Shown here one piece after another: positions 5,267 to 54,620 of a stretch of DNA of 64,000 bases (the stretch's first letter is position 1; each line of letters starts with the position of its first letter). The stretch spans positions 10,941,461 through 11,005,460 of the forward strand of contig NC_037267.1 of assembly GCF_000002425.4 (NCBI RefSeq), written 5' to 3'. Origin of the DNA: Physcomitrium patens. Taxonomy: Eukaryota > Streptophyta > Bryopsida > Funariales > Funariaceae. A program made the position numbers and the translations under genes. The notes under the pieces were generated by a model. That model had not been told where the DNA came from and did no database searches. It was given only the letters and a program-made list of their open reading frames with translations.

Positions 5267-5796
5267 TATCAAAGACATGAATCTCAAAGAAAAAAGATCT
5301 CAATATATTTTTGTGAAATTCAAAAAGACTAAAAAATCACTCAAAGATGATAATGTATTGAATTAAAATAGCTATTGCTAAAAACAAGAAGATTAAAAAA
5401 TCTTAAAATAAGCCTAAAGACTAGAAAAGAATTGACAAGAATGAATAAGGCTTTATTCTTGCCTCTATATATATTTTCTAGCTATAAGCTATGTGGCAAT
5501 ATTCTATAAGATTTCTAACATACGTTGACTTTGCTCAACATATGACTAACTTGTAAGGTAAGTTATCTATATGTGTACCATATAGTTAGCTTGTTTCATA
5601 AATTACTAATATGTATATTATATGGCTAACTTATTGGCCAATTTTTTAGCTTATAAATTAATTAAAAATACATGTAAAGTCAAAGCAATATTTATAAAGC
5701 TTCTAGGAGCTTCTTTAGAAGTTATTATGAAATTAATTTATTTTTATTTATATATTTCTACTTAATCATATAGGTAATTATTAGACTAAATATATA
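5267..5796 (-). repeat. 3' LTR of element C
   Basis: It aligns along its length with 22562-23067 and with the B LTRs. On the plus strand it begins TATCAAAGACATGAA, the decayed form of the family terminus TGTCA. The polypurine side abuts at 5797, where the minus strand reads AAAGAGAAGATAA. The R-start motif is at 5432-5442. Confidence 0.7.
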
Positions 5797-5970: not shown

Positions 5971-6529
5971 TATCAAAGACATGAACTAAAAGATGATGTA
6001 TAAATCAATGAAATTCGTGTCAAAGAAAGAGTGATAAAATAGAAATAAGAAAGTATGTATATTAAAAGAAATTAGAAAGGCTTATTGCCAAAAAGATAAG
6101 AAAATTTGAGACTCTTGAAACTAGACTAGAAGCAAGAAAAGAATTGACAAGAGTGAAGAGGGCTTCACTCTTGTCTATATATATACTATCTAATTAGAGG
6201 CTATGTGGTGATGTTCTATAGGACCTCTAATATGTGTTGACTTTATAAGACACATGCCTTGACTTACAAGGCAAGTTTTTCTATAAATGGACCACATAGT
6301 TAATTTGGTCTTCAAGCTAAAAATATGTGTGGTACATAGCTAACTTATTGACCACGTTTTCAACCCAAAAAGTCAATTAAAGACACTTATAAAGTCAAAG
6401 CAATATCTATAAAGCTTCTAGGAAGCTTTCATAGAAGATATTATAGAACAAACTTATTTTTATCTACCTCTACTTACTTCTATCTATTTATATATATAAT
6501 TACTAGCTTACATATGTATATCCATGACA
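5971..6529 (-). repeat. 3' LTR of element B
   Basis: 559 bp, aligned with 17477-18012. On the plus strand it starts TATCAAAGAC (decayed TGTCA) and ends CCATGACA. It contains a perfect 13-bp palindrome, 6146-6158 paired with 6163-6175, next to TATATATA, and the R-start motif at 6144-6154. Confidence 0.8.
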
Positions 6530-7499
6530 TTACCTCCCCTTCTAGATAGGAGTTCTATAAGGAGTGGTCATCATATGTTGAAGAAATCTATAATATGACA
6601 AATTCTATTTGCTACATACTCAGATCTTTGTTCTCTTTGAAGATGGTTGATAGGACTTCTCAACCATCGATAGTATTCTATACCAAGGCAAAAAGACCAC
6701 CTTGTTAACTGATCGTTGTTGAGGCCTTTGTAACTTCTTTCAAATAAAATATTTGGAATACTGTCAAGAATTGTTCCTACCTCTAATAAAATTACCAAAC
6801 ATCAGGAATCTCTTCCAAGGTCATGATATTAAACACGTTATATCTCGCCATCTATTTGAGAAAAAATATGTCGTTCTTGAGGATCTTCATCTTCATTACA
6901 TTGTCTTGAAGGTTGTGACAATCGCAATGTCTCATCTGACATGCCAGCAAACAAAGGCTCTTTAGTTGAATCCGCTAGTTGTTCGTTCTCCATCTTTTCA
7001 GCTTCATAACTACAAAGAAGCTACAAACAAAGATCAAAAGTAGAATGTTATCTTACCTAGATCTTATTTTTTTTATAAAAAAGGTTTTCATCTTGATTTT
7101 GATAGATGTTGTCCATGAAAAGTTTCTACCACCTTTGTTGCATTTGCAAGATTCTTTACTAGCTCCCATATACATTTACAAACATCATATCTATGCTAAT
7201 GGACAAGATATTCTAATTTATTTTGGTGTCGCCTTGAATCTAGGACTTCTTCCATTTTGAACTCTTCATTATTGTCCACTTCTATAAGAGGAAGTAGAGC
7301 TTGTTTTCTTCTTGATATGTCCACTATCTTGTATGGTTCAAGAAGAGACATGTAGAATACTGGATGAATTTTTATTGACTCCGATAGGTGTGAACGATAT
7401 GTAACTCAATTGATTAGTGTAGAAATAGAAAATGGTCCAAGCCCTCGATAGTCCAGCTTGTCACAAGGACAAGTGGTCTTCATATTACGATAAAGTAAT
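6530..7499 (-). pseudogene. Chromodomain region and 3' small ORF of element B
   Basis: Minus-strand continuation of B pol after the A insertion. The first codons downstream of A read KLDYRGLGPF, matching [10 protein letters not shown] of element A, followed by a broken chromodomain-like stretch. At 6798-6571 there is an open frame of 75 codons holding YRWLRSPINHLQREQ, which aligns with YRWLQGPLNHLPREQ in A (13432-13476). It is the best preserved older copy of the extra 3' gene. The function of that gene is unknown. Confidence 0.65.
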
Positions 7500-7504
7500 C
7501 ATAC
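7500..7504. repeat. Target-site duplication CATAC, left copy
   Basis: CATAC at 7500-7504 is repeated at 14060-14064, directly outside the two LTRs of element A. A 5-bp duplication is normal for Ty3/gypsy integrases. It shows that A inserted as one unit into element B. Confidence 0.9.
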
Positions 7505-7543
7505 TGTTAGGGACATAGTCCTTAGACCTTTCTAAAGACAAGT

Positions 7544-7561
7544 TTCTAGAACCTTCTAGAA
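7544..7561 (+). promoter_or_regulatory. Heat-shock element HSE1 (four perfect units)
   Basis: TTCTAGAACCTTCTAGAA: TTC, GAA, TTC, GAA blocks, each separated by exactly 2 nt, which is the consensus for heat-shock factor trimers. It is about 250 bp upstream of the TATA box and conserved at 13626-13643 in the 3' LTR. Binding is inferred from the motif. Confidence 0.75.
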
Positions 7562-7572
7562 AGAAGTCTCTA

Positions 7573-7590
7573 GAAACTTCCAGAAGATTC
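7573..7590 (+). promoter_or_regulatory. Heat-shock element HSE2 (four perfect units)
   Basis: GAAACTTCCAGAAGATTC: GAA, TTC, GAA, TTC with exact 2-nt gaps, 11 bp after HSE1. Repeated at 13655-13672. Further two-unit sites follow: GAATATTC at 7594-7601, GAAGATTC, and GAAGCTTC three times before the TATA box. Confidence 0.75.
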
Positions 7591-7808
7591 CTTGAATATT
7601 CTCTTAGAATATTCTTCAAAGATTCTCTAAAGATTCTTTGAAGATTCCCTAAAGATTCCCTTAGAAGGCTCTAAAAGATTCTTAGAATATTCTGGTAGAT
7701 TCTAGGAAGTTACTTGAGAAGCTTCCTAGCTCTTGGGTAGTTGCTCGAGAAGCTTCATAGTTCTTGGGAAGCTTCTTGATGCGCTTCTTTAGAACCATAA
7801 GCCAGTAG

Positions 7809-7816
7809 TATATATA
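7809..7816 (+). promoter_or_regulatory. TATA box of element A 5' LTR
   Basis: TATATATA followed by GGAG, 32 bp before the predicted RNA start at 7841. The 3' LTR has the same box at 13891-13898. Confidence 0.75.
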
Positions 7817-7819
7817 GGA

Positions 7820-7849
7820 GTCGAGGCTGAAGAGTTCTTCAGTCTCGAC
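7820..7849 (+). repeat. Palindrome at the U3/R junction
   Basis: A 14-bp inverted repeat with a 2-nt centre: 7820-7833 pairs with 7836-7849 throughout, with one G-T (G-U in RNA) pair at 7826/7843. The right arm contains the predicted RNA start. The left arm GTCGAGGCT resembles the primer site GTCGAGACT. A palindrome of different sequence sits at the same place in B (6146-6175). Confidence 0.8.
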
Positions 7850-7851
7850 AA
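7841..7851 (+). promoter_or_regulatory. Predicted RNA 5' end / self-primer
   Basis: AGTCTCGACAA is the exact reverse complement of 7980-7990. It lies 32 bp downstream of the TATA box, where transcription should begin. By analogy with Tf1 of fission yeast, this RNA end would fold onto the primer site and, after cleavage, prime reverse transcription. Confidence 0.7.
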
Positions 7852-7979
7852 CACATCTCTTGAAGCTCTAGCTCAATTCTCTTGGCGTTGCTCTTGTATT
7901 CATCTGATAATCTAGTTCTTGTCATTTCTTCTTGAACTTCTTGTTTAGATTTCTTGTTTGTATTTTGGTCCGTGACAGT

Positions 7980-7990
7980 TTGTCGAGACT
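7980..7990 (+). other. Primer binding site (self-complementary, not tRNA-type)
   Basis: TTGTCGAGACT starts after a 2-nt spacer (GT) behind the LTR end. It pairs over 11 of 11 bases with 7841-7851. I recognise no complement to a common primer tRNA 3' end here. B, C and D have the same 2-nt spacer and 11-nt complement with different bases. Confidence 0.75.
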
Positions 7991-8001
7991 ACCTTTATCT
8001 T

Positions 8002-8105
8002 AATATCAGAGCTGAATCCTTCTTGTTTGAGAGCGGATTACCCCTCTTCTTGAAGGTATTCTAGCGCTTTAGGGGTTGCGGATTACCTTCTTCTAAACTG
8101 ATATT
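8002..8105 (+). repeat. Leader hairpin unit 1
   Basis: Arms AATATCAG (8002-8009) and CTGATATT (8098-8105) are perfect inverted repeats closing a 104-nt unit with two internal copies of GCGGATTACC (near 8033 and 8078). It is untranslated leader between primer site and gag. The role is unknown; packaging, dimerisation or translation control are possible. Confidence 0.7.
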
Positions 8106-8116
8106 TTCTCAATCAC

Positions 8117-8220
8117 AATATCAGAGCTTAGTTCTTTGAGGCAGAGAATGGACTACCCCTTTCCTTGGAGATACTTGAGCGTTCTAAGGGTTGCGGATTA
8201 CCCTCTCTTGGACTGATATT
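8117..8220 (+). repeat. Leader hairpin unit 2
   Basis: Same layout as unit 1: AATATCAG at 8117-8124, CTGATATT at 8213-8220, with GACTACCCC and TTGCGGATTACCC inside. The unit length of 104 nt is the same as unit 1. Confidence 0.7.
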
Positions 8221-8268
8221 AATTCCTTCTTTTTGTTTAGCATAGCTAGTAAAAAAGACTGTTAACAT

Positions 8269-8375
8269 CGATTTCAGAGCTTTGCCTTCTTGATAGAGTG
8301 CGGATTACCCCTCTTCTCGAAAGCATTGAGGCATTTTTAGAGGTTGCGGATTACCCTCCTCTAAAACTGAAATCG
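8269..8375 (+). repeat. Leader hairpin unit 3 with changed but still pairing arms
   Basis: Arms CGATTTCAG (8269-8277) and CTGAAATCG (8367-8375) pair perfectly although two positions differ from units 1 and 2 on both sides. Internal GCGGATTACCCC and TTGCGGATTACCC blocks are kept. The compensatory changes support an RNA stem. Confidence 0.7.
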
Positions 8376-8494
8376 TTTAGTGTTTTTTTTTTTTTTCTCC
8401 GAGTAGGTTTTAGTGACAGGTAGTGCTACAATTTCTCCAAGAGACTTAGCAATTTCTTCTTCTCTCAAAATTTTAATCCATCTATTCTCTAAAT

Positions 8495-9544
8495 ATGGAA
8501 GTAGACCAGGTCATAGACAATGCATCTCCACAAGTAGACAATAGAGTGGCAACTCTTGCAGATCTTCAAGCTCTTATGAATAGTGTACGAAAGGAGATTG
8601 CATTTCTTCGCAATCCAAGTAAAGAACCTCAAATTGATCTAGTGACCGAAGAAGCTAGACGCGAAATTCATAGCCTACAACAAGAGATTATTCGACTGAG
8701 AGAAGCAAGACATGTGTCACATACGACCCCTATAGATACTTCAAGGATTAGTACGAAAGAACCAAAAGCGAGTATGCCAGACAAGTTTGACGGAACAAGA
8801 GCCAACTTCCGAGGTTTTGTGCAACAAGTACGGCTTTACCTACGCCTATACCCTTCTCGTTATCCGAATGGATTTACCTAGGTTGCTTTCATAGGTACTC
8901 TTCTATCAGGAAATGTTCGCTCTTGGTTTGCTCCACTATTGGAGAAGGATTCTCCAATATTGTACGACCTAGAGGCTTTCATAGAGAGACTTACTGCTGC
9001 GTTTGGAGATAGCGATCGAGAAAGAGTGGCTGAAAGAAAGATACAAAATCTGCGACAAGGATCACGTTCTGCTGCAATTTATGCTGTAGAATTTCAACAG
9101 CTTACATGTGATCTTGATTGGAATGATAAGGCGTTCATGACACGATTTCGATATGGACTGAGAGATGATGTCAAGAACTTATTGATCACCATGCCTAAGG
9201 CGGATACTTTAGAAGAACTTATATCTCAGGCAATTATTTGTGACAACCGCCTCTTTGAATTACGACAAGAAAGACGATCAGGCTGGAGAAATGATGGAGC
9301 ATTTGCTACATTTTCAAAAGGTCCAGAGAATCACTCCACAGATCCTGAACCCATACAAATTGATGCGGTACGTTTCAAACCCCTCACAACTGAGGAAAGG
9401 AAGCGACGGTTTGAACAAAACTTGTGTTTATATTGCGGAGAAGCGGGCCATAAAGCTGTAGATTGTCGGAAGAAACAGAAGCTTCAAACAACAAGACTCA
9501 GGAATACAAGCATGCAGGAAAACAAGGACGCCCAGCCACAATAG
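8495..9544 (+). pseudogene. gag of element A, one premature stop
   Basis: Structural protein of the virus-like particle, about 350 codons from ATG 8495 to TAG 9542-9544. The N-terminal part has a helical region rich in E, Q and R (REIHSLQQEIIRLREA), then the capsid-like domain (KFDGTRANFRGF, then AAIYAVEFQQLTCDLDWND), and a CCHC zinc knuckle CLYCGEAGHKAVDC near the end for nucleic-acid binding. A single in-frame TAG at 8879-8881 follows GFT; both sides are in the same frame and otherwise sound, so it is one point mutation (from CAG or TGG). The end overlaps the pol frame. Confidence 0.9.
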
Positions 9545-12500
9545 GGACCGTGCGGCTGGACATCTCAACATCCAAAATTAATCAAGGTCCCTTTCTCTCA
9601 GCTCAACCTTCAGATTATTTTATGGTACCTTTACATCTGGGTATTCAAGAACTACAAGTCGATGCTTTATTAGACTCGGGTGCATCCGCTTGCTTTATAG
9701 ATGAAGAGTTTGCCAAGCTTCACAATATTTCTCTTGTAAAGAAACTTAAGCCTGTCCATGTAGAAGTCATAGACGGACGACCATTGTCTTCGGGCAATGT
9801 TATCCATGAAACTAAACCATTGAAGGTACGTCTTGAAAACCATGAGAGCAATATTGTGTTTAATGTTATCAAGACCCCTTCATGTCCTATCATTTTGGGA
9901 CTATCTTGGCTTGATAGATATAATCCATTGATAGATTGGAAGTTGCGGAAAGTGACATTTCCAACAAACTCCTTGAAGGTGGAATCTGCCAAGACAATGT
10001 CTAGAAACAAATCCTTGTTTATAGGTGCAAGGGCTTTCATGAAGGAAGCTAAGCAAAATACACCTCTTGTCATCTTCGCAACTCCGACTCGAGAAGATGC
10101 AACTCCGACTTTGGTTATTCCAAAGCAGTATGAAGAATTCAAAGATGTCTTTGAAAAGAAGAATGCTGATATGCTGCCAGAGCATCGACCCTATGACTGT
10201 GCCATTGAATTACAAGAAGGAGCACAACCACCTTTTGGACCAATCTACAATTTGTCGCAGACGGAGTTGATTGAGTTGCGGAAGTACATTGACGAGAATC
10301 TAGCCAAGAACTTCATCCGTCATTCGAAGTCGCCAGCTGAGGCACCAATCTTATTTGTGAAGAAAAAAGATGGCTCACTACGGATGTACGTGGACTATCG
10401 AGGTCTCAACAAGGTGACAAAAAAGAATCGCTACCCACTGCCTTTGATCTCTGGTCTTCTAGAACAACTTGGGCGTGCAAGGATCTTTACAAAGATTGAC
10501 CTAAGGGGAGCTTACAACCTTGTGCGAATCAAGGAAGGAGATGAATGGGAGACAGCTTTTCGAACAAGGTATGGCCATTTTGAATACAATGTCATGCCAT
10601 TTGGTCTTACTAATGCTCCAGCGGTCTTTCAACACATGATGAATGACATCTTTCGAGAGCATCTAGACGATTTTGTTGTCATCTATCTAGATAATATTTT
10701 GATATTTTCTAAGAACGAGGAAGAACATGAGAAGCACGTTCGTTTGGTACTCAAAAAACTACGGGAGCGAGGATTCTATGCCAAATTGGAAAAGTGCTTA
10801 TTTCACCAAACTGAGATGGAGTTTTTGGGATTCATCGCGACTACGGAAGGCTTGAAGATGGATCCAAAGAAGGTGGAAGCAATCATGTCTTGGGAAGTTC
10901 CGAAGACAGTTAGGGACGTACAATGTTTTCTTGGATTTGCTAACTACTATCGGATCTTCATCAAGAATTATTCTCAAGTTGCTGCCCCCCTCACTCGGTT
11001 AACGTGTAGGGACAAGCTCGAATGGGGACCTATCGCAGAAAAAGCATTTCAAGATTTGAAGATGGTATTTACTACAACTCCAATCTTGGTACATCCGGAC
11101 TTTACAAAGGCCTTTTATTTGGAGACAGATGCGTCGGATTTTGCTTTGGGAGCTGTACTTTCACAGATGGGCGTAGATGAGAAGCTCCATCCAGTTGCGT
11201 TCTATTCTCGAAAATTCTCTGCTGCTGACATCAACTATGAGATCCACGATAAGGAACTCCTTGCTATAGTAGATTCTTTCCAAGAGTGGCGCCACTTTCT
11301 CGAAGGAACTGCACATCCAGTGACCGTATATATGGATCACAAGAATTTGGAGTATTTTATGTCGGCTCGGGTTTTGAATCGGCGTCAAGCTCGGTGGAGT
11401 ATGTCGCTATCCAGGTTCGACTTTGTTATTACTTATCGGCCTGGGAAGCAACAAGGGTTGTCCGATGCATTATCAAGGAGATCATATCTCGCGCCAAAGG
11501 CTGAAGATGCAGCATTTGATCAACAGTGCACGACATTGTTGAAGCCAGAGAAATTTCGGCTCAACGCAGCTATTGTACCAATTGATGCTGACTTCCTCGA
11601 CCAGGTACGGGCCGCAACCATTGAAGATTCTCTAGCCCTTGATATCAAGCAACATGCTAGTGATGATAAATTCAAGATGGAAGGAGATCTAGTATATTTC
11701 GAAGAGCGGTTGTATATCCCAAAAGGGCCAACACGACTCCGAGTTCTTCAATCTCGTCATGACTTTCCAGCTGCGGGACATTTTGGATTCAATAAGACCT
11801 TGGAACTTATTTCCCACGATTTCTGGTGGCCTCAAATGTGGAAGGATGTGAAAGATTTTGTTGTATCTTGTGACATTTGTTCAAGATCCAAAAACCCTCG
11901 ACATCGGCCTTATGGACTTCTACAGCCATTGCCTATTCCGCGCCGACCATGGTCTTCGGTTTCCATGGACTTTATTACGGATCTACCACCATCGAATTCA
12001 TTTGACAGCATTTTTGTTGTTGTAGATCGGCTTACAAAGATGGCGCATTTTGTCCCTTGCAAGAAGACATCGTCAAGCGAAGACACAGCAAGACTCTTTC
12101 TTGATAATGTGTATCGATATCATGGTCTACCAGATGATATCGTATCGGATCGAGGAACCTAGTTTGTGTCAAAGTTTTGGAAATCTCTTTTTGAAATATT
12201 GAAGGTAGATATCAAGCTTTCTTCGGTATTTCATCCTCAAACGGACGGCCAAACAGAACGAGTGAATCAAGTTTTAGAGCAATATTTACATTGCACCATC
12301 AACTATCAACAAGATGATTGGGCCGCATATCTACCGCTAGCCGAGTTCGCATATAACAACACCCTTCATGCGTCAACTCAACAAACGCCATTCTTTTCCA
12401 ATTATGGATACCATCCGAAGCTTGACTTATGGAGTTCGTCAACGATTAACAATCCGGCAGCTGAAGGATTGGTGAAGGAGCTTTCGCAGCTTCAAACTAC

Positions 12501-13119
12501 ATTGAAGCTTCAATTGCAAACTGCCCAAGAATCTTACAAGGCGTCCGCGGACAAATTTCGGAATCAGGCACCTAAATTCACGATTGGAGACAAAGTTTGG
12601 CTGCTTCGACGAAATATTAAGACCAAGCGGCCATGTGATAAATTGGACTATCGGAGATTGAGACCATTTGTTATTCAGAAGCAGATCAATCCTATAGCGT
12701 ATCATCTGGAGTTACCAGCTACTATGAAGGTACATCCTGTCTTTCATGTTTCTTTGTTGGAACCTTATCGAGAATCGTCTTTTCCTAGAAGAGTACAATG
12801 TCCACCACCTAGCATAGAAATAGAGAACCACGAAGAATACGAGGTGGAAAAGGTCCTGGATTCACGGCAAAGACGGGGTAAATTAGAATACTTTGTGCAT
12901 TGGAGCGGTTACGATATTAATGAACGAACATGGGAGCCGGCCGAAAATCTCGCGAATGCACCGAAAAGGTACAGGAGTTTCATCGACGATATCCTGAGAA
13001 ACCCAAGTCGGTTCGACGATAGCTTCTTACTCAAGCTTGCTCATCCAGAAAACAGAAAAGAGGAGAGAGCACCACCAAAATCCATAGTTGATGTAGTCAT
13101 TCTCTCCAAGATAGCGTAG
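9463..13119 (+). pseudogene. pol of element A: protease, RT, RNase H, integrase, chromodomain
   Basis: Frame -1 relative to gag, overlapping it at 9463-9544; the nominal ATG at 9463 need not be used, and I see no canonical slippery heptamer. Order of domains: aspartic protease with LLDSGAS (residues 69-75), reverse transcriptase with KIDLRGAYN and MPFGLTNAP, RNase H with TDASDFALGA, integrase with the HH-CC zinc region (CDIC), MDFITD, DRGT and the E of TERVNQ, then a chromodomain with [17 protein letters not shown] and TWEP. Two defects: TAG at 12160-12162 right after DRGT in the integrase core (CAG expected), and YLDN at 10684-10695, where RTs need YXDD. The chromodomain places it among chromoviruses; the sequence style is Tcn1/fungal-like. 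Confidence 0.93.
12838..12993 (+). other. Chromodomain of element A integrase
   Basis: [21 protein letters not shown] and [10 protein letters not shown] form a complete chromodomain of about 50 residues at the pol C-terminus. Such domains steer integration towards histone-marked chromatin in chromoviruses. The aromatic positions Y, W and W are present. Confidence 0.85.
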
Positions 13120-13572: not shown

Positions 13573-13585
13573 AAAGGAGGAGGTG
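13573..13585 (+). other. Polypurine tract of element A
   Basis: AAAGGAGGAGGTG ends one base before the 3' LTR at 13587, the usual site for plus-strand DNA priming. B has AAGGGGAGGTAA at the same place. Confidence 0.8.
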
Positions 13586-13586
13586 A

Positions 13587-14059
13587 TGTTAGGAACATAG
13601 TCCTTAGACCTTTCTAGAGACAAGTTTCTAGAACCTTCTAGAAAGAAGTCTCTAGAAACTTCCAGAAGATTCCTTGAATATTCTCTTAGAATATTCTTTA
13701 AAGATTCCCTAAAGATTCTTTGAAGATTCCCTAAAGATTCCCTTAGAAGGCTCTAGAAGATTCTTAGAATATTCTAGTAGATTCTAGGAAGTTACTTGAG
13801 AAGCTTCCTAGCTCTTGGGTAGTTGCTCGAGAAGCTTCATAGTTCTTGGGAAGCTTCTTGATGCGCTTCCTTAGAACCATAGCTCAGTAGTATATATAGG
13901 AGTCGAGGCTGAAGAGTTCTTCAGTCTCGACAACACATCTCTTGAAGCTCTAGCTCAATTCTCTTGGCGTTGCTCTTGTATTCATCTGATAATCTAGTTC
14001 TTGTCATTTCTTCTTGAACTTCTTGTTAGATTTCAAGTCTGTATTTTGTGTCCGTGACA
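13587..14059 (+). repeat. 3' LTR of element A
   Basis: 473 bp, same length as the 5' LTR. Both perfect HSEs (13626-13643, 13655-13672), the TATA box (13891-13898) and the palindrome (13902-13931) are conserved. Followed by CATAC (14060-14064). Confidence 0.95.
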
Positions 14060-14064
14060 CATAC

Positions 14065-16310
14065 CTTATTGCCCATGTGGAATGGTGGTTGTTCCTTTTA
14101 ATAGACATCCGTATTGGTCTTTTGTTGTTCTTGAGCTTCTTTTAACTTCGCCTTTATTCTTGCATGTAGCTCTGATAAGTGATTTGCCAAATCTTTCACT
14201 TTTAGAAACAGAAGACTATGGTTGTTCTAGAATAGGTAATAGTTGAAGAAGTCCGTAAAGTCCATGACGAGGAATTTTTGATCTTGAATAAATATTGTAT
14301 GATTGAACAAAGTCTTTTACACCCTTCCACATTTGTGGCCACCAAAAATCTCTGAATATAAGCTCCTAAGTCTTGTTGTATCCAAAATGTTTTGCTGCTA
14401 GAAAGTCATCACATGCTTGAAGAATACATAATCATTCTTTTCTTTTTGGAACATATAATCAACCTTCAAAATAAAGTAGGTTGTTTTTAAACTCAAACTT
14501 AGAAGTATCTTGAGGCTTAGAAGAAGGATTCTTGATATTGTAAATAAGAAGATCAGAAGACATATTTGATTGGATTTGTTTTACAAGAGTTGAATCAATA
14601 GTCAATGTTGAAGTTTATCATTTGTTCATATTTGTGATAATACGGCACTTAAAGCAAAATCAAATGCATTTGTTTCCATAAAAAATGCCTTAGAAAAGTC
14701 GATGTGATACAAGATTAATACAAAAATAAATGCCAACTTCAAAGTTTCAAAAGATGCTTTAATTCCTTTGTTCCAGTCAAGTTTATCTTTGCAAGTCTAA
14801 CATATAAATAGGCTACAATTTGAAAAAAATCTTTGATGAAGATCCGATAATAGTTAGAAAAGGCCAAAAAGCATTAGAAATTTCTTATCATTTTTGGAAT
14901 CTTCCAATCCATAATTATTTAAAATTTTTTAAGATCCATCATAAGTCCATTATTTGAAATGATGTATCCTAAAAAGTCGACTTGAATAGTGTAGAATACA
15001 CACTTTTCTATCTTGGCAAAGAGTCTCGCATTTCTTAATTTTTGTAACACACGACAAATATGAAGTTCATGTTCATCTATGTTCTTAGAATAGATCAAGA
15101 TATCGTTCAGATAATAGACAACAAAATCGTCTAAAAATTCTCAAAAAATATCATTCATTAGATGTTGAAAAGCTGTCAATGCATTTGCAAGTCCAAAAGG
15201 TATGATGTAGTATTCAAAATACCCATACCTAGTTTGATATGCAATCTTCCATTCATCTCTTTCTTTAATACGTACTAAATTATATGCTCCTTATAGAATT
15301 TATTTTTGTTTAGATCTTAACTTGATTCAATTGATTGGGAAGTCTTGATATCAAAGATAGATGATACCTGTTCTTGATGGTGATCTTGTTGAGTCTTTGA
15401 TAGTCAATACACCTCCGCAATGACCTATCTTTCTTCTTCACAAATAAGATTGGAGCTCTTGCTGGTGATTTAGAATGGTGTATGAAATTCTTGGCCATAT
15501 TTTCTTTAATATATTCCTTGAGTTCAACGAATTCATTTTGTGATAAACTATAGATTGATTCAAATCGCAATTGTGCTCTTTCTTGAAAGTCAATTGAGTA
15601 GTCATAGGGACGATACTCTGGAAGAGAATCCACATTCTTCTTCTCAAATACAACTTGAAATTCTTGATATTGGTTGAAAATGCTACTTGAAGTCTTTGCA
15701 TCATTAGAAACAAGTGTGGTATAAATGACACAAGGTGTCCCTTTTTTTGTAGCATGCAAGAAAGCTCTTGCACCTACAAATATAGATTTAATTGCATTAG
15801 ACTTATGACTTTCTACTGGATTAATTTTACTCTTAAATATGCTTTTAGAAAAGTCATGAGTATAAAAAATCTAATCTATGCAAGGATTATATTTTTCTTA
15901 CCATGATAAATCTAAAATGACTAAGTTAGAAAGAGATTTAATTATATTAAAGATTATGCAACTACTATGACTATTTATTGCTACATGTATAGGAAGTGTT
16001 TCATAAATAACATCTCCAGAAGACAACAGATAACCATCTATGACTTCTACATGAATAGGTTTGGTTTTCTATACTAATGGTATTTTATGAATTTTAACAA
16101 ATTCTATGTCTAAGAAATAAGTTGAGGCTCTTGAATCTATCAAGGCAGAGGCTTTATAAATATTAGGTCCTAAACACACATCTATTATAAAACAAGGAGA
16201 GGATTTTCAAGAGAAGATAGGACCTTCATTAGAAATTATACAAAATTCCAACTGCATGGTTCCTATTATAGCTGGACAAATTTGTTTTCCGACATATTGT
16301 CTTTTTTGAC
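14065..16310 (-). pseudogene. pol of element B (broken), part upstream of A
   Basis: Minus-strand pol relic. The protease active site reads DSRAS near 16130, against DSGAS in A. A 149-codon open piece (15759-15310) covers the RT N-terminus with YRPYDYSIDF, HSKSPARAPILFVKKKD and IDYQRLNKI. The YXDD motif reads YLND near 15100. The integrase begins (DFWWPQMWKGVKDF) but jumps from the WSS-S position straight to the linker KVKDLANHL near 14210, losing the catalytic core. The frame is then cut by element A at 14060. Confidence 0.75.
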
Positions 16311-17463: not shown

Positions 17464-17474
17464 ACTCTTATCAA
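17464..17474 (-). other. Primer binding site of element B
   Basis: On the minus strand TTGATAAGAGT, 2 nt after the 5' LTR end. It pairs with the R start ACTCTTGTCAA (from the 3' LTR, 6144-6154) at 10 of 11 positions; the one mismatch is a C-to-T step in the primer site. Confidence 0.65.
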
Positions 17475-22548: not shown

Positions 22549-22559
22549 ATTCTTATCAA
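22549..22559 (-). other. Primer binding site of element C
   Basis: On the minus strand TTGATAAGAAT, 2 nt after the LTR. It pairs with the R start of its 3' LTR (ATTCTTGTCAA, complement of 5432-5442) at 10 of 11 positions, the exception again a transition. Confidence 0.6.
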
Positions 22560-29205: not shown

Positions 29206-29412
29206 TATATAGATACAAGAATAAAGCCTTATTCACTCTTGTCAACACCATTCTAGGTTTTAGTCTTCTTTCAAGTCTTTTTAGTTGTCTCATCTTTGCT
29301 AATAGCCATTTTAGTTTCAATATTGTATTAAATTTGAATAAATATCTATTCTTTTGAGTTACATAAGAGTGTATTGAATTTTTGGTTCTTTAAGATTGAT
29401 GTCCTTGATAAT

Positions 29413-29423
29413 TTGACAAAAGT
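29413..29423 (+). other. Primer binding site of element D
   Basis: TTGACAAAAGT, 2 nt after the LTR end, pairs with ACTCTTGTCAA (29235-29245) at 10 of 11 positions. Confidence 0.65.
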
Positions 29424-45288: not shown

Positions 45289-45792
45289 TATCATATACAT
45301 ATATATTTACTTAAATAAAAAGTATTAAGTAGAAGTTAAATGTCAATAGATTTGATATTATCTTGTGGAAAAGCTTCTTAAAAGCTTCATAGATACGTAT
45401 TTGACTTTATACATATTTATAGTTGGTTGATAGGTTAGAAACTTAACCAAAAAATTAATCAAGTAATATACATGTGGATTACTTATGATATAAGCTAACA
45501 ATGTAGTACACATATAAAAAAACTTGCCTTGCAAGTTAAGACATGTGACTTGCAAATTAGACATGTATTAGAGGTCTTATAGAACATCACCATATCGTTT
45601 TTAGTTAATAGTATATATGGAGGTAAGAGTGAAGCCTTCTTTATTCTTGTGAATGTCTTTTTAGTTCTTAGTCTTATTTCAAGACTTTTTGGTCTTTTGT
45701 CTTTGACAATAGTCATTCCAATTTTAATACTATATTAGTTTTAAATAATTATCTATTGAGTTTTTGGCTCTTTGAGATTTATGTCATTGATA
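45289..45792 (+). repeat. 3' LTR of element D
   Basis: Starts TATCATATACATA (decayed TGTCA) and ends GTCATTGATA. Followed by AGTAT and the small-ORF sequence of I. Confidence 0.75.
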
Positions 45793-50160: not shown

Positions 50161-51644
50161 ACATCAAGAACTAGGAGGATTCACAATAACTGCACAACAC
50201 GACGCAACTACAAAATTCTTACCTTCTCAGGTAGGCAATATCCGTGATCGATTGGTACAAGCTTCATATCATTGTTCTCATCTCTGCAGACAAGAATGTT
50301 CCCGCCATTTCTATCAGTGTTGGCCAGTCGCATGTCAAGGACAGCAATTTTGTGCACATCTTCCACGTCAAATTTCGCAGTCCCCATATCTTCACAGCTG
50401 GTGAAGGAACGCACAAACTGCTGAAGAGAGCCAAGCTTGGGCTTCTTTACAACATCCAAAGTGTCATCAGAATATCGAAAAGCCTCGTGTGCACATCGAA
50501 CCAACATTGTAGGAGGTACACCAGCAAAACCAAGGGGATGCTTCTTAAAAGAAGTTCTCCGCCCTTCCTTAGGATGATCGAGCAAGTAGGCAACCACTTC
50601 CCGCATGGCCCCTTCTCCTACTCTCGTACCTCTCTTCAAACCTTCACTGCTAGATACCCTTGAAATTTTGGCAAAACCACGAGGATTGTTTATTGCAAGT
50701 GGCTCCTCGTCGACAGGCTTGAAGATCGCAACACTTTCTACACCATAAGAATTCTTAAGAAAATACGCCCCACCAGATCCTTCCGATGCCAAGGCAGGCG
50801 CATAACCTCCCTGAAGACCAGCCTTCGCTTGTTCAAGAATGTCAACTAAGACATCTGGAATCTCATACCGTAAAATTCCACACGCAGGCTCCAAAACATA
50901 TACAGGTTGAACCGCATTCTTGGTCGTACCTCCATTCTTAAAATTGTAACTTAGTTGACGATGAGGTATAGTATACTTGGACTGGTCTGTAAGAGGGACC
51001 TCCTGCACTTCCTGAAGGAGAGCCTTCCCCTTTGAAAGAACAGGTTCGTCTGCTGATACGGAAAGTTCCACGTCTTTGCCAACAACCCTCGTCCGGACTT
51101 TCGATGATCGCCTTAATACAAGATGAACCACAGCATCGTCCTCAAGACACAATTCATCAATGCACTTCTGGTCTTCTAAATTTTGCCCTCTGAGAACCAA
51201 CTGTTGCGCATTCAAAGCTAGGCCCTCTTTCTCAGAGATCTGCTTCTTCAGATCGCGAACACAATGGCTACGTTCAACTTTGTAAACGTACTCAGTTCCA
51301 TCAGCCGACTTGATAGTGACATCGACAATATCATCGAGATACAGAACTAAATGTAACTTTTCTCCGTTCGAGACACCATAATCCCTGACCAGGCGGTCAT
51401 TGCGAGTCAGCTCCCTAACCCCATATACAAGCCTCTGTTGTCTAGTGTAGAATCCTTTGTAAGCCTGAATCTTCATTTTAACGGACGATATGGTGTCGGA
51501 CCTGAAGACCTGCATGGGGGTGGTAGTTTCGGAGCCAAGTGTTGCAAGATAAATTTGTATAGCCTCCACCGACGGCATAGCCCCGCGATGAAGTGCGGGT
51601 AAAAAAGCTTCCGCCGGAGACATAACGAGCCCAGAGGCAGCCAT
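49684..51644 (-). CDS. Ubiquitin-like-domain phosphatidylinositol 4-kinase gamma family protein
   Basis: Two coding exons, 51644-50223 and 50070-49684, join in phase 0 across a 152-bp GT-AG intron (PEK then FEDVTF), giving 602 residues. The first ATG in frame is at 51642-51644 (context AAAATGG); the longer open frame upstream has no ATG. Domains: two ubiquitin-like domains at about 28-103 and 106-178, a linker, then a PI3/4-kinase-type domain from about 285, with VAIFKP (K309), the catalytic loop DRNGGNIL (444-451) and the metal-binding DHG in PIDHGYCLPE (466-468). This is the plant PI4K-gamma/UBDK architecture; some family members in flowering plants act as protein kinases on ubiquitin-pathway proteins instead of on lipid, so the substrate is open. 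All key residues are present and there are no breaks. Confidence 0.95.
50071..50222 (-). other. Intron of the PI4K-gamma gene
   Basis: Minus strand begins GTAAGAATTTTG and ends AACTGTGCAG. It carries a (GA)n/(CT)n run at about 50123-50156, giving a pyrimidine-rich CT tract on the coding strand upstream of the acceptor. Confidence 0.9.
50123..50156. repeat. (GA)n microsatellite
   Basis: About 17 GA units, within the intron; length is likely to vary between individuals. Confidence 0.9.
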
Positions 51645-54620
51645 TTTGACCAATTCCACCAAAAACCAATGGAACTTGTTCAAGCAACTCCTTAACGCAG
51701 CCGACAAGTAGCGCCTCCGCTTCTAGACGCTTACTTCCTTCAACCCCTCATGCTGATCGATGAAGCGACAGATATTGTCTCGATGTCTAGTCAAATACGC
51801 ACGCGGCCGACGCGATATACTTCACACTTTAGGTTTCACAATTTAAGCAAGTACATATGTATTCACAATGACATTAGTAGCTATATCCGCTGTATCATAC
51901 AATCTATACTACATAATATTCACAATCAAGACAGCTGCAAGCTCAGCTCAGCAGCTGTGAAATCCAACAACTACATCGAACTACTCATACAATTTTCCTG
52001 GTTACAAATTCCATCGCAATTCTTTTGTTCGGTTGCTGCAAAACAGCATGCGAAACCCGATTACAATCCTTAGACGAGGACCTCGCCTAACACTAAGTGT
52101 TGCAACCCTTCTCGTGCTCTGTCCCAACCTTGAGTATGTTGATGTTGAACGTGATCAATACCAATCCCCTCTCCGACTATCAAGTATGATGTAATATCCA
52201 CACGGCACAGAATATGGCTTATCTTCGATATTAGTGTAAAGGACTTGCAGCACAAGGACTGAAGTCTCCGAGACACAACTCTGAATAATGCGATTCCAGT
52301 CTTCACCAACTCATTTCCTCAAATTTCGTATCGAGTTTGATGTTTAAGAAAAAAACCTTTCGAATCGTCTCGCCGGAAAAGACACGTGATCAATGCCAAC
52401 AGATGTACTCATATAAATCTTCGAGTCAAGATCAACTGCGCCAGACACAAGCTCTCAAACGTACAGCATAACACAACATACTAGACATATCAACAGGGAG
52501 TTTCTTCAACCGACGCGATGGAGAAAGATAGAAAAGAAAAAATAAACGATCAACCCCGCTCTTAACACGCATGCCTCGTTCCCTCCGACACCTCTCACGG
52601 GTACACTCTGTTTACAACTGCAGCACAGCCACTGCCACAACCGTCCATCACACCCTAAACGCTACATGAACTCGCTCCTTACGAGACGCGAAACTCCCCT
52701 CGAACCACCAACATGTCGCACCCCTTCCAAAAAAACGTCCAAAAATCGGTCAAATTGCTCTGCTCTCAATGCCTGGACACTGAAATTCGTCTTCCTACAA
52801 ATGTCCCCTTCCCGCGACCACCGCAGCTTCTCTTACTCCTCAATTCCTTCAAACTCGCCGTCTGGTTAACAACATTACGCTCAAGTGGCTACCAGCGCCA
52901 CTTGAATTCCTGCCGTTCATCACCAACTCCGAGCACCTGCGAGAATGATTCTACAGCCTCCACCTCACACCCGTACCCGAAACACAAATAAGAATCACCA
53001 CGCTCAAAACTCGTCCGAGGGTGGCTACGGCAAAAAACTCCAAACACAGGAGCATAGAACAGAGGATCGTTTCCGCGTGAGAAAGTAAGGCTCACACCAT
53101 AGAAGGCGCAAGTGAAATAGAAGGGCCTAGAAGCACCGTGGAAACTGAGGGATACATTCCTTCCGTGTGAACAGTGCCACTAGAAGCCCTTTAGAGCAAG
53201 ACTTTGCATAATCATCCTTTCCACGATAATGCTCATTTAGTTACTGAAGACATTCACCGTAATAAATATGAAAAATCATATTTGTTTGCATCCTCATAGT
53301 GCACTGTCCAAATATCATTATAATGTAATATAATTTGGCACGTATACGAAATGATCTCCTATGAGAAATTATACTTGTTTTTATTTTCATGTCGTCAATT
53401 AAACATTGTAAAGACACACGCACACATCATGCGACGGATGACAGTCCATCGACTGAGGAATAGTTACACGTGTTAGCGTGTGAGGTTCGGTTGCTGACTC
53501 ATTAGTACTCAACTTACCAATCACACACCAACAGCCAGAGTTCCTGGAGTCAATCTCACCTTCCTGAGCACCGGAACCGAGAAGCTCCCCCCCCAACGAT
53601 ACTATTGTGGACGGCATCCATTTCAGTCAGATCGTCACCAGAATCATCCCGCTCCAGAGACTGCTTTAGCCCTAATTTCACAATCAATCCAAAATGATTC
53701 TGGCTTTGATCTTACTGAAATATATTCAAGGGTGAATGAGGGCAATGAGCCAGAGTGAAGATACATTATCTAAAAATTGCACAGTGACACAGAGATAAAA
53801 CAACAATAAAGGAATAGTGATAGGTCCTAGACTACGATCTCATCCTGAGCAAGTTTGCATTTTCATCCACACGGGGTATTTTTAAGAATACCATGATCAG
53901 ACACTGATTGTGGAAAATATCCACGATTACTGGAAATTAACACAGGAGTCTTCTGGTAATTCCTATCTCGGCGTGCACCCCAAAGCGAAAGCGCGAGTTC
54001 AATGAGCCATGCCAGAGTTGGAATGTGGCGAACAAGGAGCTCCGTCCAAAAAGGATGGATTGCGCGCTCGCTCACCTCTTGGAGCGAAAGGGAACATGCG
54101 CAAATGTCAGATGCGGGTGATGGACAAAAGGCAGAGGGGAAGGGAGTCAGCACCCGCAACACCCCTGCGGAATTTCCCAAAATTGTGGTGGTGGGTGATA
54201 AGAATTGCCGGCACTTTCCCGCAATTCGACGAGTCAGAATCCTGGCGATGTCTCCGCCTTTGTGTCAGATCATCCCACTTGTGACGCACACTACATTATT
54301 TTGGACCAGGAGGTGGGGCGGTGGCCATGGTGGGGGCAATGGTGCGGGAACAGCTGCCAGAACGACGCCTAGCGTTATTCCGGGTGGAGATATCTGTGGC
54401 AGCCCGTAACGGGTCCATGTGGATGAATGAATGGCGATGTGGTTTAGTCCTGTACGTGTTATGTCCGATGTTTATCGTCCAGTTAGGATGAATGAAACCT
54501 ATCCACACGTCACCCTTCGTGGGCTCAAACCAAATTTAATTATTCCCTATTTATTTTTGGTTTTAATAATCGAAATTGGATTATGTATTGATGTTCGTAA
54601 AAACTCTGTCTACATGTTTT
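51645..54620. other. Upstream region of the PI4K-gamma gene
   Basis: Balanced composition. The part next to 51644 must hold the 5' untranslated region and promoter. Frames up to 135 codons (54002-54409) show no known domain and overlap similar frames on the other strand, so I call no gene. A diverging neighbour cannot be excluded. Confidence 0.45.

Follow-up and report, generated by a model that had tools for sequence, protein, structure and literature searches.

A probably self-primed chromovirus of Physcomitrium patens with a predicted hairpin across its RNA start

The window, the whole stretch of 64,000 nucleotides of Physcomitrium patens that was analysed (NC_037267.1, positions 10,941,461 to 11,005,460), contains LTR retrotransposons that are called elements A to D here (Table 1). 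Element A is a complete insertion of a chromovirus that is abundant in the genome of this moss. Its LTRs are identical to each other in 461 of 475 aligned columns, and the order of protease, reverse transcriptase (RT), RNase H and integrase, with a chromodomain (Pfam), marks it as a Ty3/gypsy chromovirus. It appears that A lies inside B and B inside C, with B and C on the minus strand. The integrase region of B is interrupted by A (7118-7519 and 14204-14614), and therefore A was inserted into the coding part of B. Between A and B, identity is 50-59% in the pieces from protease to integrase and drops to 34% in Gag, which indicates that the two are old separate families. A further LTR start with a TATA box and hairpin-like arms at 45609-45653 (start near 45643, plus strand) is possibly the 3' LTR of D. 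The window also carries a host gene for PI4-kinase gamma with ubiquitin domains (50208-51707, minus strand), with 100% identity to Physcomitrium patens over the aligned 95% of the query.

In the leader of A, the outer stems of the tandem units were seen by eye to change in step. The stem AATATCAG/CTGATATT occurs twice and GATTTCAG/CTGAAATC once, and each unit has GCGGATTACC-like motifs. This tandem-unit leader is perhaps a packaging signal.

Table 1. Positions of the features of elements A to D within the window
Feature	Positions	Strand	Remarks
A, 5' LTR (TG...CA)	7505..7977	+	LTR pair and ends
A, 3' LTR	13587..14059	+	LTR pair
A, target-site duplication CATAC, left copy	7500..7504	+	
A, target-site duplication CATAC, right copy	14060..14064	+	
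A, TATA box TATATATA	7809..7816	+	32 nt before predicted RNA start
A, U3 tail arm of hairpin	7820..7832	+	complementary to 7837-7849, one G.U
A, hairpin loop	7833-7836	+	
A, 3' arm of hairpin	7837..7849	+	CTTC plus RNA positions 1-9
A, predicted first 11 nt of RNA (putative self-primer)	7841..7851	+	
A, spacer between LTR and PBS	7978..7979	+	2 nt
A, putative self-primer binding site (PBS)	7980..7990	+	11/11 complementary to 7841-7851
A, structured leader with tandem repeat	7991..8390	+	z -3.3, 0/100 shuffles fold as well; repeat family D17
A, Gag ORF	8939..9544	+	Pfam PF03732
A, protease, RT, RNase H, start of integrase	9463..12162	+	Pfam
A, downstream ORF with SH3_Tf2-1 and chromodomain (end of integrase)	12166..13119	+	Pfam PF24626, PF00385
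A, purine-rich stretch before 3' LTR, likely polypurine tract	13573..13586	+	named by eye
A, U3/R hairpin in 3' LTR	13902..13931	+	this copy would be transcribed in full and be masked
B, RNA start in 3' LTR	6144..6154	-	U3 arm 6163-6175
B, PBS	17464..17474	-	10/11 with 3' LTR start, 9/11 with own 5' LTR start
B, 5' LTR RNA start	17637-17627	-	
C, RNA start in 3' LTR	5432..5442	-	
C, PBS	22549..22559	-	10/11 with 3' LTR start
D, RNA start	29235..29245	+	
D, PBS	29413..29423	+	10/11

The preliminary description had noted that the predicted RNA start of A, at a fixed distance from the TATA box, is the exact complement of the site behind the LTR, and both the exact pair and the distance were found as described. 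It had also given 10 of 11 pairs for B, C and D; this was reproduced, but B and C reach it only when the RNA start is taken from the 3' LTR, as the 5' copy gives 9 of 11. A-D all have a spacer of 2 nt, provided that the LTR of A and C is read as ending in CA and that of B and D in TA, an altered CA. Its statement that every mismatch is a transition does not extend beyond the window, since 12 of the 51 mismatches among 100 genomic copies are transversions by a hand count. In element B, one mismatch between the 5' LTR start and the PBS is a transversion too. Neumann et al. recognised self-priming by an LTR complement of at least 10 bp starting 0-5 bp after the LTR (PMC6317226), and A shows 11 of 11 at 2 nt.

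In the assembly of Physcomitrium patens (470 Mb in 101 contigs), the exact pair of A at the right spacing was found at 1,638 places, and the reversed-pattern control gave 0; this pattern is its own reverse complement, and both strands give identical places. A search for an LTR end followed by a PBS beginning with TTG gave 2,794 and 2,699 sites (5,493 together; reversed control 0). A pattern running from the TATA box to the LTR end had 2,821 and 1,797 matches against 8 and 25 in the reversed controls; some of these places were counted twice and each match covers the first 80 letters, with the PBS beyond them, and no copy count was derived from it. The first 100 listed of the 5,493 sites (L031-L130, all on contig C1) were taken as a sample, and they show two main PBS types, the A-type TTGTCGAGACT (40 copies) and the B-type TTGACAAGAGT (60 copies). 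Their RNA start was set by the alignment column, independently of complementarity. Perfect pairing of 11 of 11 positions was present in 61 of these pattern-picked copies (24/40 A-type, 37/60 B-type), and among the other 39, 28 had one mismatch, 10 had two and 1 had three. As the sampling pattern fixes the LTR end and 5 of the 11 PBS positions, these values overstate perfect pairing for the whole family and do not bear on PBS conservation. The major letter at the RNA start reached 0.973 in the A-type and 0.971 in the B-type; neighbouring positions had 0.93-0.97 and the PBS is partly fixed by the pattern, and conservation of the start and the PBS was therefore dropped as evidence.

The position of the predicted start is regular in the sample. 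The -1/+1 step is pyrimidine-purine in 100 of 100 copies, and TATATA first occurs at -32 in 39 of 40 A-type and at -31 in 58 of 60 B-type copies. When the RNA from the start to the leader was folded as a single strand, the predicted best structure held at least 8 of the 11 start-PBS pairs in 54 of the 60 B-type copies; in the A-type this was so in only 19 of 40.

The two types differ at 3 of the 11 positions, and all three differences are compensated in the PBS and in the U3 arm. The earlier observation that the bases differ between families while pairing is kept is thus borne out, both by A- and B-type and by the loci from outside the host genome described below. Covariation of the start with the PBS, proposed before as a check, is seen as compensation between the types, but within-type covariation was looked for in the 100 copies and none was seen. 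In the B-type, a changed start position 2 and a changed PBS position 10 were combined once (L112). Because of this absence of within-type covariation and the 12 of 51 transversions, the start-PBS mismatches look like decay after insertion.

Relatives came from a scan of bacterial and archaeal assemblies, which yielded 15 stray eukaryotic loci (L151-L165). These retrotransposon contigs lie in assemblies of bacterial and archaeal species, 9 of the 15 under one Trichormus label, which presumably hints at a fern symbiosis. An exact 11-nt pair is present in 7 of the 15 loci (L151, L154, L155, L156, L157, L162 and L164), all of which have a 2-nt spacer following CA, with the TATA box 32-34 nt upstream of the pair. 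L151 has an A-like pair, and L154, L155, L162 and L164 share the pair AAGGCGAACAA/TTGTTCGCCTT. L156 differs from them at one position, and this change is compensated in the start, the PBS and the U3 arm. L157 has a 12-nt match that resembles the B-type except for one base inserted in each partner, and for the TATA distance its pair begins one base inside this match. In an unbiased scan of the 15 loci, 67,812 11-mers were tested; 8 places had an exact complement about 100-210 nt upstream, and 6 of these 8 lie 2 nt behind an LTR end (L162 was found in this way), which exceeds what chance would give. The other 8 loci lack an intact signature, some of them without the needed flank, and a relaxed search of the nine loci without a first match gave only scattered one-mismatch matches. 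In L153, by our own reading of the scan, the 5' copy is decayed and the hairpin of the other LTR copy is intact. L162 contains a Pol end, an LTR, a PBS and then a further Pol start, which looks like a tandem arrangement of elements. A search of viral contigs for relatives gave 4 and 374 pattern stretches, none of which was confirmed, and megablast of 700 bases of L155 against plasmids found no match.

Immediately upstream of the predicted RNA start, the sequence is complementary to RNA positions 1-9, and the pairing continues for 3-4 more pairs into U3. This hairpin is an addition to the preliminary description. It gives a predicted three-way fit of U3 tail, RNA start and PBS, with a hairpin of 12-13 bp, in the A-type, in the B-type and in 6 of the 7 paired outside loci. 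The stretch 13897-13937 in the 3' LTR of A folds at -22.8 kcal/mol (z -6.5), and 0 of 200 shuffles fold as well. Over 13 positions, Watson-Crick or G.U pairs make up 472 of 520 in the 40 A-type and 755 of 780 in the 60 B-type copies, and the outermost pair accounts for 26 of the 48 that are broken in the A-type. Outside the host genome, 8 or 9 of RNA positions 1-9 are paired with U3 in 6 of the 7 loci; the exception is L157 with 2 of 9, which pairs 11 of 11 with its PBS yet has no hairpin. The arms of L154, L155, L156, L162 and L164 have other letters and nearly the same geometry. In L154, L155, L156 and L164, the U3/R hairpin is the only perfect 9-bp hairpin (loop 3-12) of the contig; the same scan found none at the start in L151, which has a G.U in the arm, or in L157. 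A complement of nine out of nine arose in 393 of 200,000 shuffled upstream sequences. Weaker hairpins are found in D and in the 5' LTR of C. The hairpin cannot serve as a marker by itself, because a window-wide scan of its geometry mostly finds AT repeats. Its extra pairs would not derive from copying between start and PBS during replication, since they lie upstream of the RNA start.

The effect of the hairpin on the primer was calculated in a two-strand model at 37 C. For RNA beginning at +1, the computed start-PBS pairing had a median of 0.94 in the A-type and 0.97 in the B-type, and with 26 nt of U3 in front the modelled medians were 0.005 and 0.000. With U3 in front, the pairing fell below 0.1 in 30 of 40 A-type and 55 of 60 B-type copies; with a shuffled U3 tail, the median was 0.96 and 7 of 100 were below 0.1. 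Among the outside loci with their U3, the model predicts masking (at most 0.06) in L151, L155, L156 and L164, partial masking in L154 (0.29) and L162 (0.24), and none in L157.

These calculations suggest how the two copies of the primer may be told apart. The R region stands twice in the RNA, and the primer would be its first 11 nt. To our knowledge, how self-primed elements avoid using and cutting the 3' copy of R is an open point, and the hairpin would be a simple answer to it. An RNA begun at +1 would start inside the 3' arm, so that the hairpin could not form and the start would be free for the PBS. Where U3 is transcribed together with R, as in the 3' LTR and in read-through RNA, positions 1-9 would be locked in the hairpin of 12-13 bp, and only RNA begun at +1 would have a free primer. 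With the primer hidden in these two contexts, RNase H would be unable to cut off the 3' end of the RNA. We tentatively put forward, with slightly more doubt than trust, that self-primed chromoviruses keep the primer sequence in three fitting places and that the U3/R hairpin acts as a proof-reader of the start site, by which RNA from the element's own start alone is copied.

It is unlikely, although it deserves attention, that the function of the hairpin lies in 3' end formation or minus-strand transfer instead of masking. The whole hairpin would be transcribed only near the 3' end of the RNA, as such a function would ask for, but it uses positions 1-9, which a primer-less strong-stop DNA would not need as acceptor; a joint role is still compatible with this. 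We regard it as improbable that the inverted repeat is a protein site at the DNA level and the PBS match a by-product. The repeat does sit between the TATA box and the start in the A-type, the B-type and 6 of the 7 outside loci, as a promoter palindrome would; however, the families vary in sequence yet keep the complementarity, also with the PBS, which lies outside the promoter, and the G.U pair kept in 40 of 40 A-type copies would be a mismatch in DNA.

Priming by a tRNA has very little in its favour as the mechanism of these elements. TGG is absent from the first 19 nt after the LTR in A-D, and the best 3'-anchored tRNA match to the PBS site was 7 of 11 in A and 5-6 in B-D, in a set of 20 of the moss's own tRNAs (15 distinct ends, 20 of 63 listed matches) with the initiator tRNA outside it. 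A comparison with the host tRNAs had been proposed earlier, and it gave no good complement among these 20; likewise, a TGG-led complement of a tRNA 3' end, as in tRNA-primed elements, was not found at the LTR of A-D. The remaining candidate for a true primer site is a conserved TATCAGAGC motif downstream of the self-primer site (8003-8012 in A, 10-14 nt after that site in the sampled copies), which occurs in 32 of 40 A-type and 42 of 60 B-type copies (74/100). The primer site of the plant initiator tRNA-Met is TGGTATCAGAGC, which we take the motif to resemble, and the full TGGTATCAGAGC is present in 3 of 40 A-type copies, L054 among them, and in 0 of 60 of the B-type. The motif lies, however, at least 23 nt after the LTR end, and it is the primer site that sets this end. 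A TGG to pair with CCA is present in only 3 of 100 copies, and the motif was not seen by eye in the leader of the A-like L151. In the A-type, the motif is also inside a predicted duplex between leader and LTR (z below -2 in 34 of 40) and inside a leader stem.

Chance or the shared ancestry of near-identical copies is practically out of the question: copies of one type are closely related and represent few independent events, but at least 4 sequence types have full complementarity at the same place and the reversed-pattern controls gave 0, and this explanation is already contradicted by the compensated types.

Taken together, the most likely primer of reverse transcription in element A is the 11-nt 5' end of its own RNA, and the U3/R hairpin would lock the 3' copy. 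Self-priming is favoured because of the compensation between families, the right position relative to the TATA box and the LTR end, and the lack of fit to the tested tRNAs, with the compensated pairs carrying the case. The earlier suggestion that this group of plant chromoviruses primes itself is supported on the same grounds. Self-priming in the manner of Tf1 is thus the best explanation and well supported, as far as the sequences and a predicted RNA start allow. By analogy with Tf1, transcription would start about 32 nt after the TATA box, RNA positions 1-11 would fold back to pair with the site 2 nt beyond the LTR, RNase H would cut after position 11, and the released 11-mer would prime minus-strand synthesis. 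The RNase H domain found in A (Pfam) is consistent with the cleavage step at the level of sequence. The three-part sequence signature could be used for annotating self-primed elements.

Self-priming in moss elements is not new, as a prediction for the class is already in print. Neumann et al. 2019 predicted it for the majority of the Tcn1-clade chromoviruses of mosses and clubmosses, and also for TAR copia elements (PMC6317226), and the preliminary description, which knew of no plant example, has therefore been overtaken on this point. Their plant Tcn1 clade includes moss chromoviruses with predicted self-priming, as A is; unlike here, the available account of that clade gives no compensation or genome-wide counts. 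Its main text does not contain the words hairpin, palindrom or inverted. The U3/R hairpin is not described in the available texts of PMC10085805, PMC6317226, PMC5445492 and PMC3601003, and it is new as far as our literature searches reach, although an older description may exist. Novikova et al. 2010 reported for SM-Tcn1 of Selaginella, also a Tcn1-like element of a non-seed plant, evidence for neither tRNA priming nor self-priming (PMC2864245), and in the latter it differs from A. The fungal GalEa copia elements, with their Conserved Hairpin Site, similarly lack a classical PBS and have a hairpin near the priming region, but this hairpin immediately follows the 5' LTR, and U5 yielded no complementary sequence (PMC5445492). 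RLG1 and RLG2, which are named families, are expressed in the moss (PMC7466625), RLG1 reportedly in protonema. The proposed role of the hairpin could be tested on short RNAs, in a moss that expresses such elements.

In a quick tree built from A together with 24 chosen proteins, A was joined with sequences from a chytrid, a smut, a protosteloid, a fish and a frog, apart from Tanacetum and Closterium (100). A second tree placed the families with a hairpin in two clades (A, L151, B and C; L153-L156, L162 and L164) and the hairpin-less L157 in a third, with B and C as short pieces, several long branches and no clade labels. Both RT/RNase H trees carried long-branch warnings, and among their sequences none bore the label Tf1, Tcn1, CRM, Tekay, Galadriel or Reina.

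The Tf1/sushi group comprises Tf1, Tf2, Tj1, Tosmo1-3 and Tcry1 of fission yeasts and others (PMC7175516, PMC10085805). It is established, as the preliminary description stated, that Tf1 uses the first 11 nt of its transcript as primer (PMC7175516). The group and A are both chromoviruses; the group has a self-primer at the 5' end of the RNA that is complementary to a PBS after the LTR (PMC7175516, PMC10085805), as is predicted for A, and A also resembles the group in its SH3_Tf2-1 domain and chromodomain. The available accounts of the group mention no U3/R hairpin, Tf1 being compared by its description only. A further difference is the moss host, and the "pretzel" of three duplexes, two of them between the flanks of the PBS and the LTR, is seen here in part. 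Its leader-LTR duplex had a median z of -3.25 in the A-type (34 of 40 below -2) and was predicted in 1 of 60 B-type copies, and the U5-LTR duplex in 0 of 40 and 4 of 60. In the 7 outside loci, z was below -2 for the U5-LTR duplex in L155 (-3.5) and L156 (-2.8) and for the leader-LTR duplex in L154 (-2.2).
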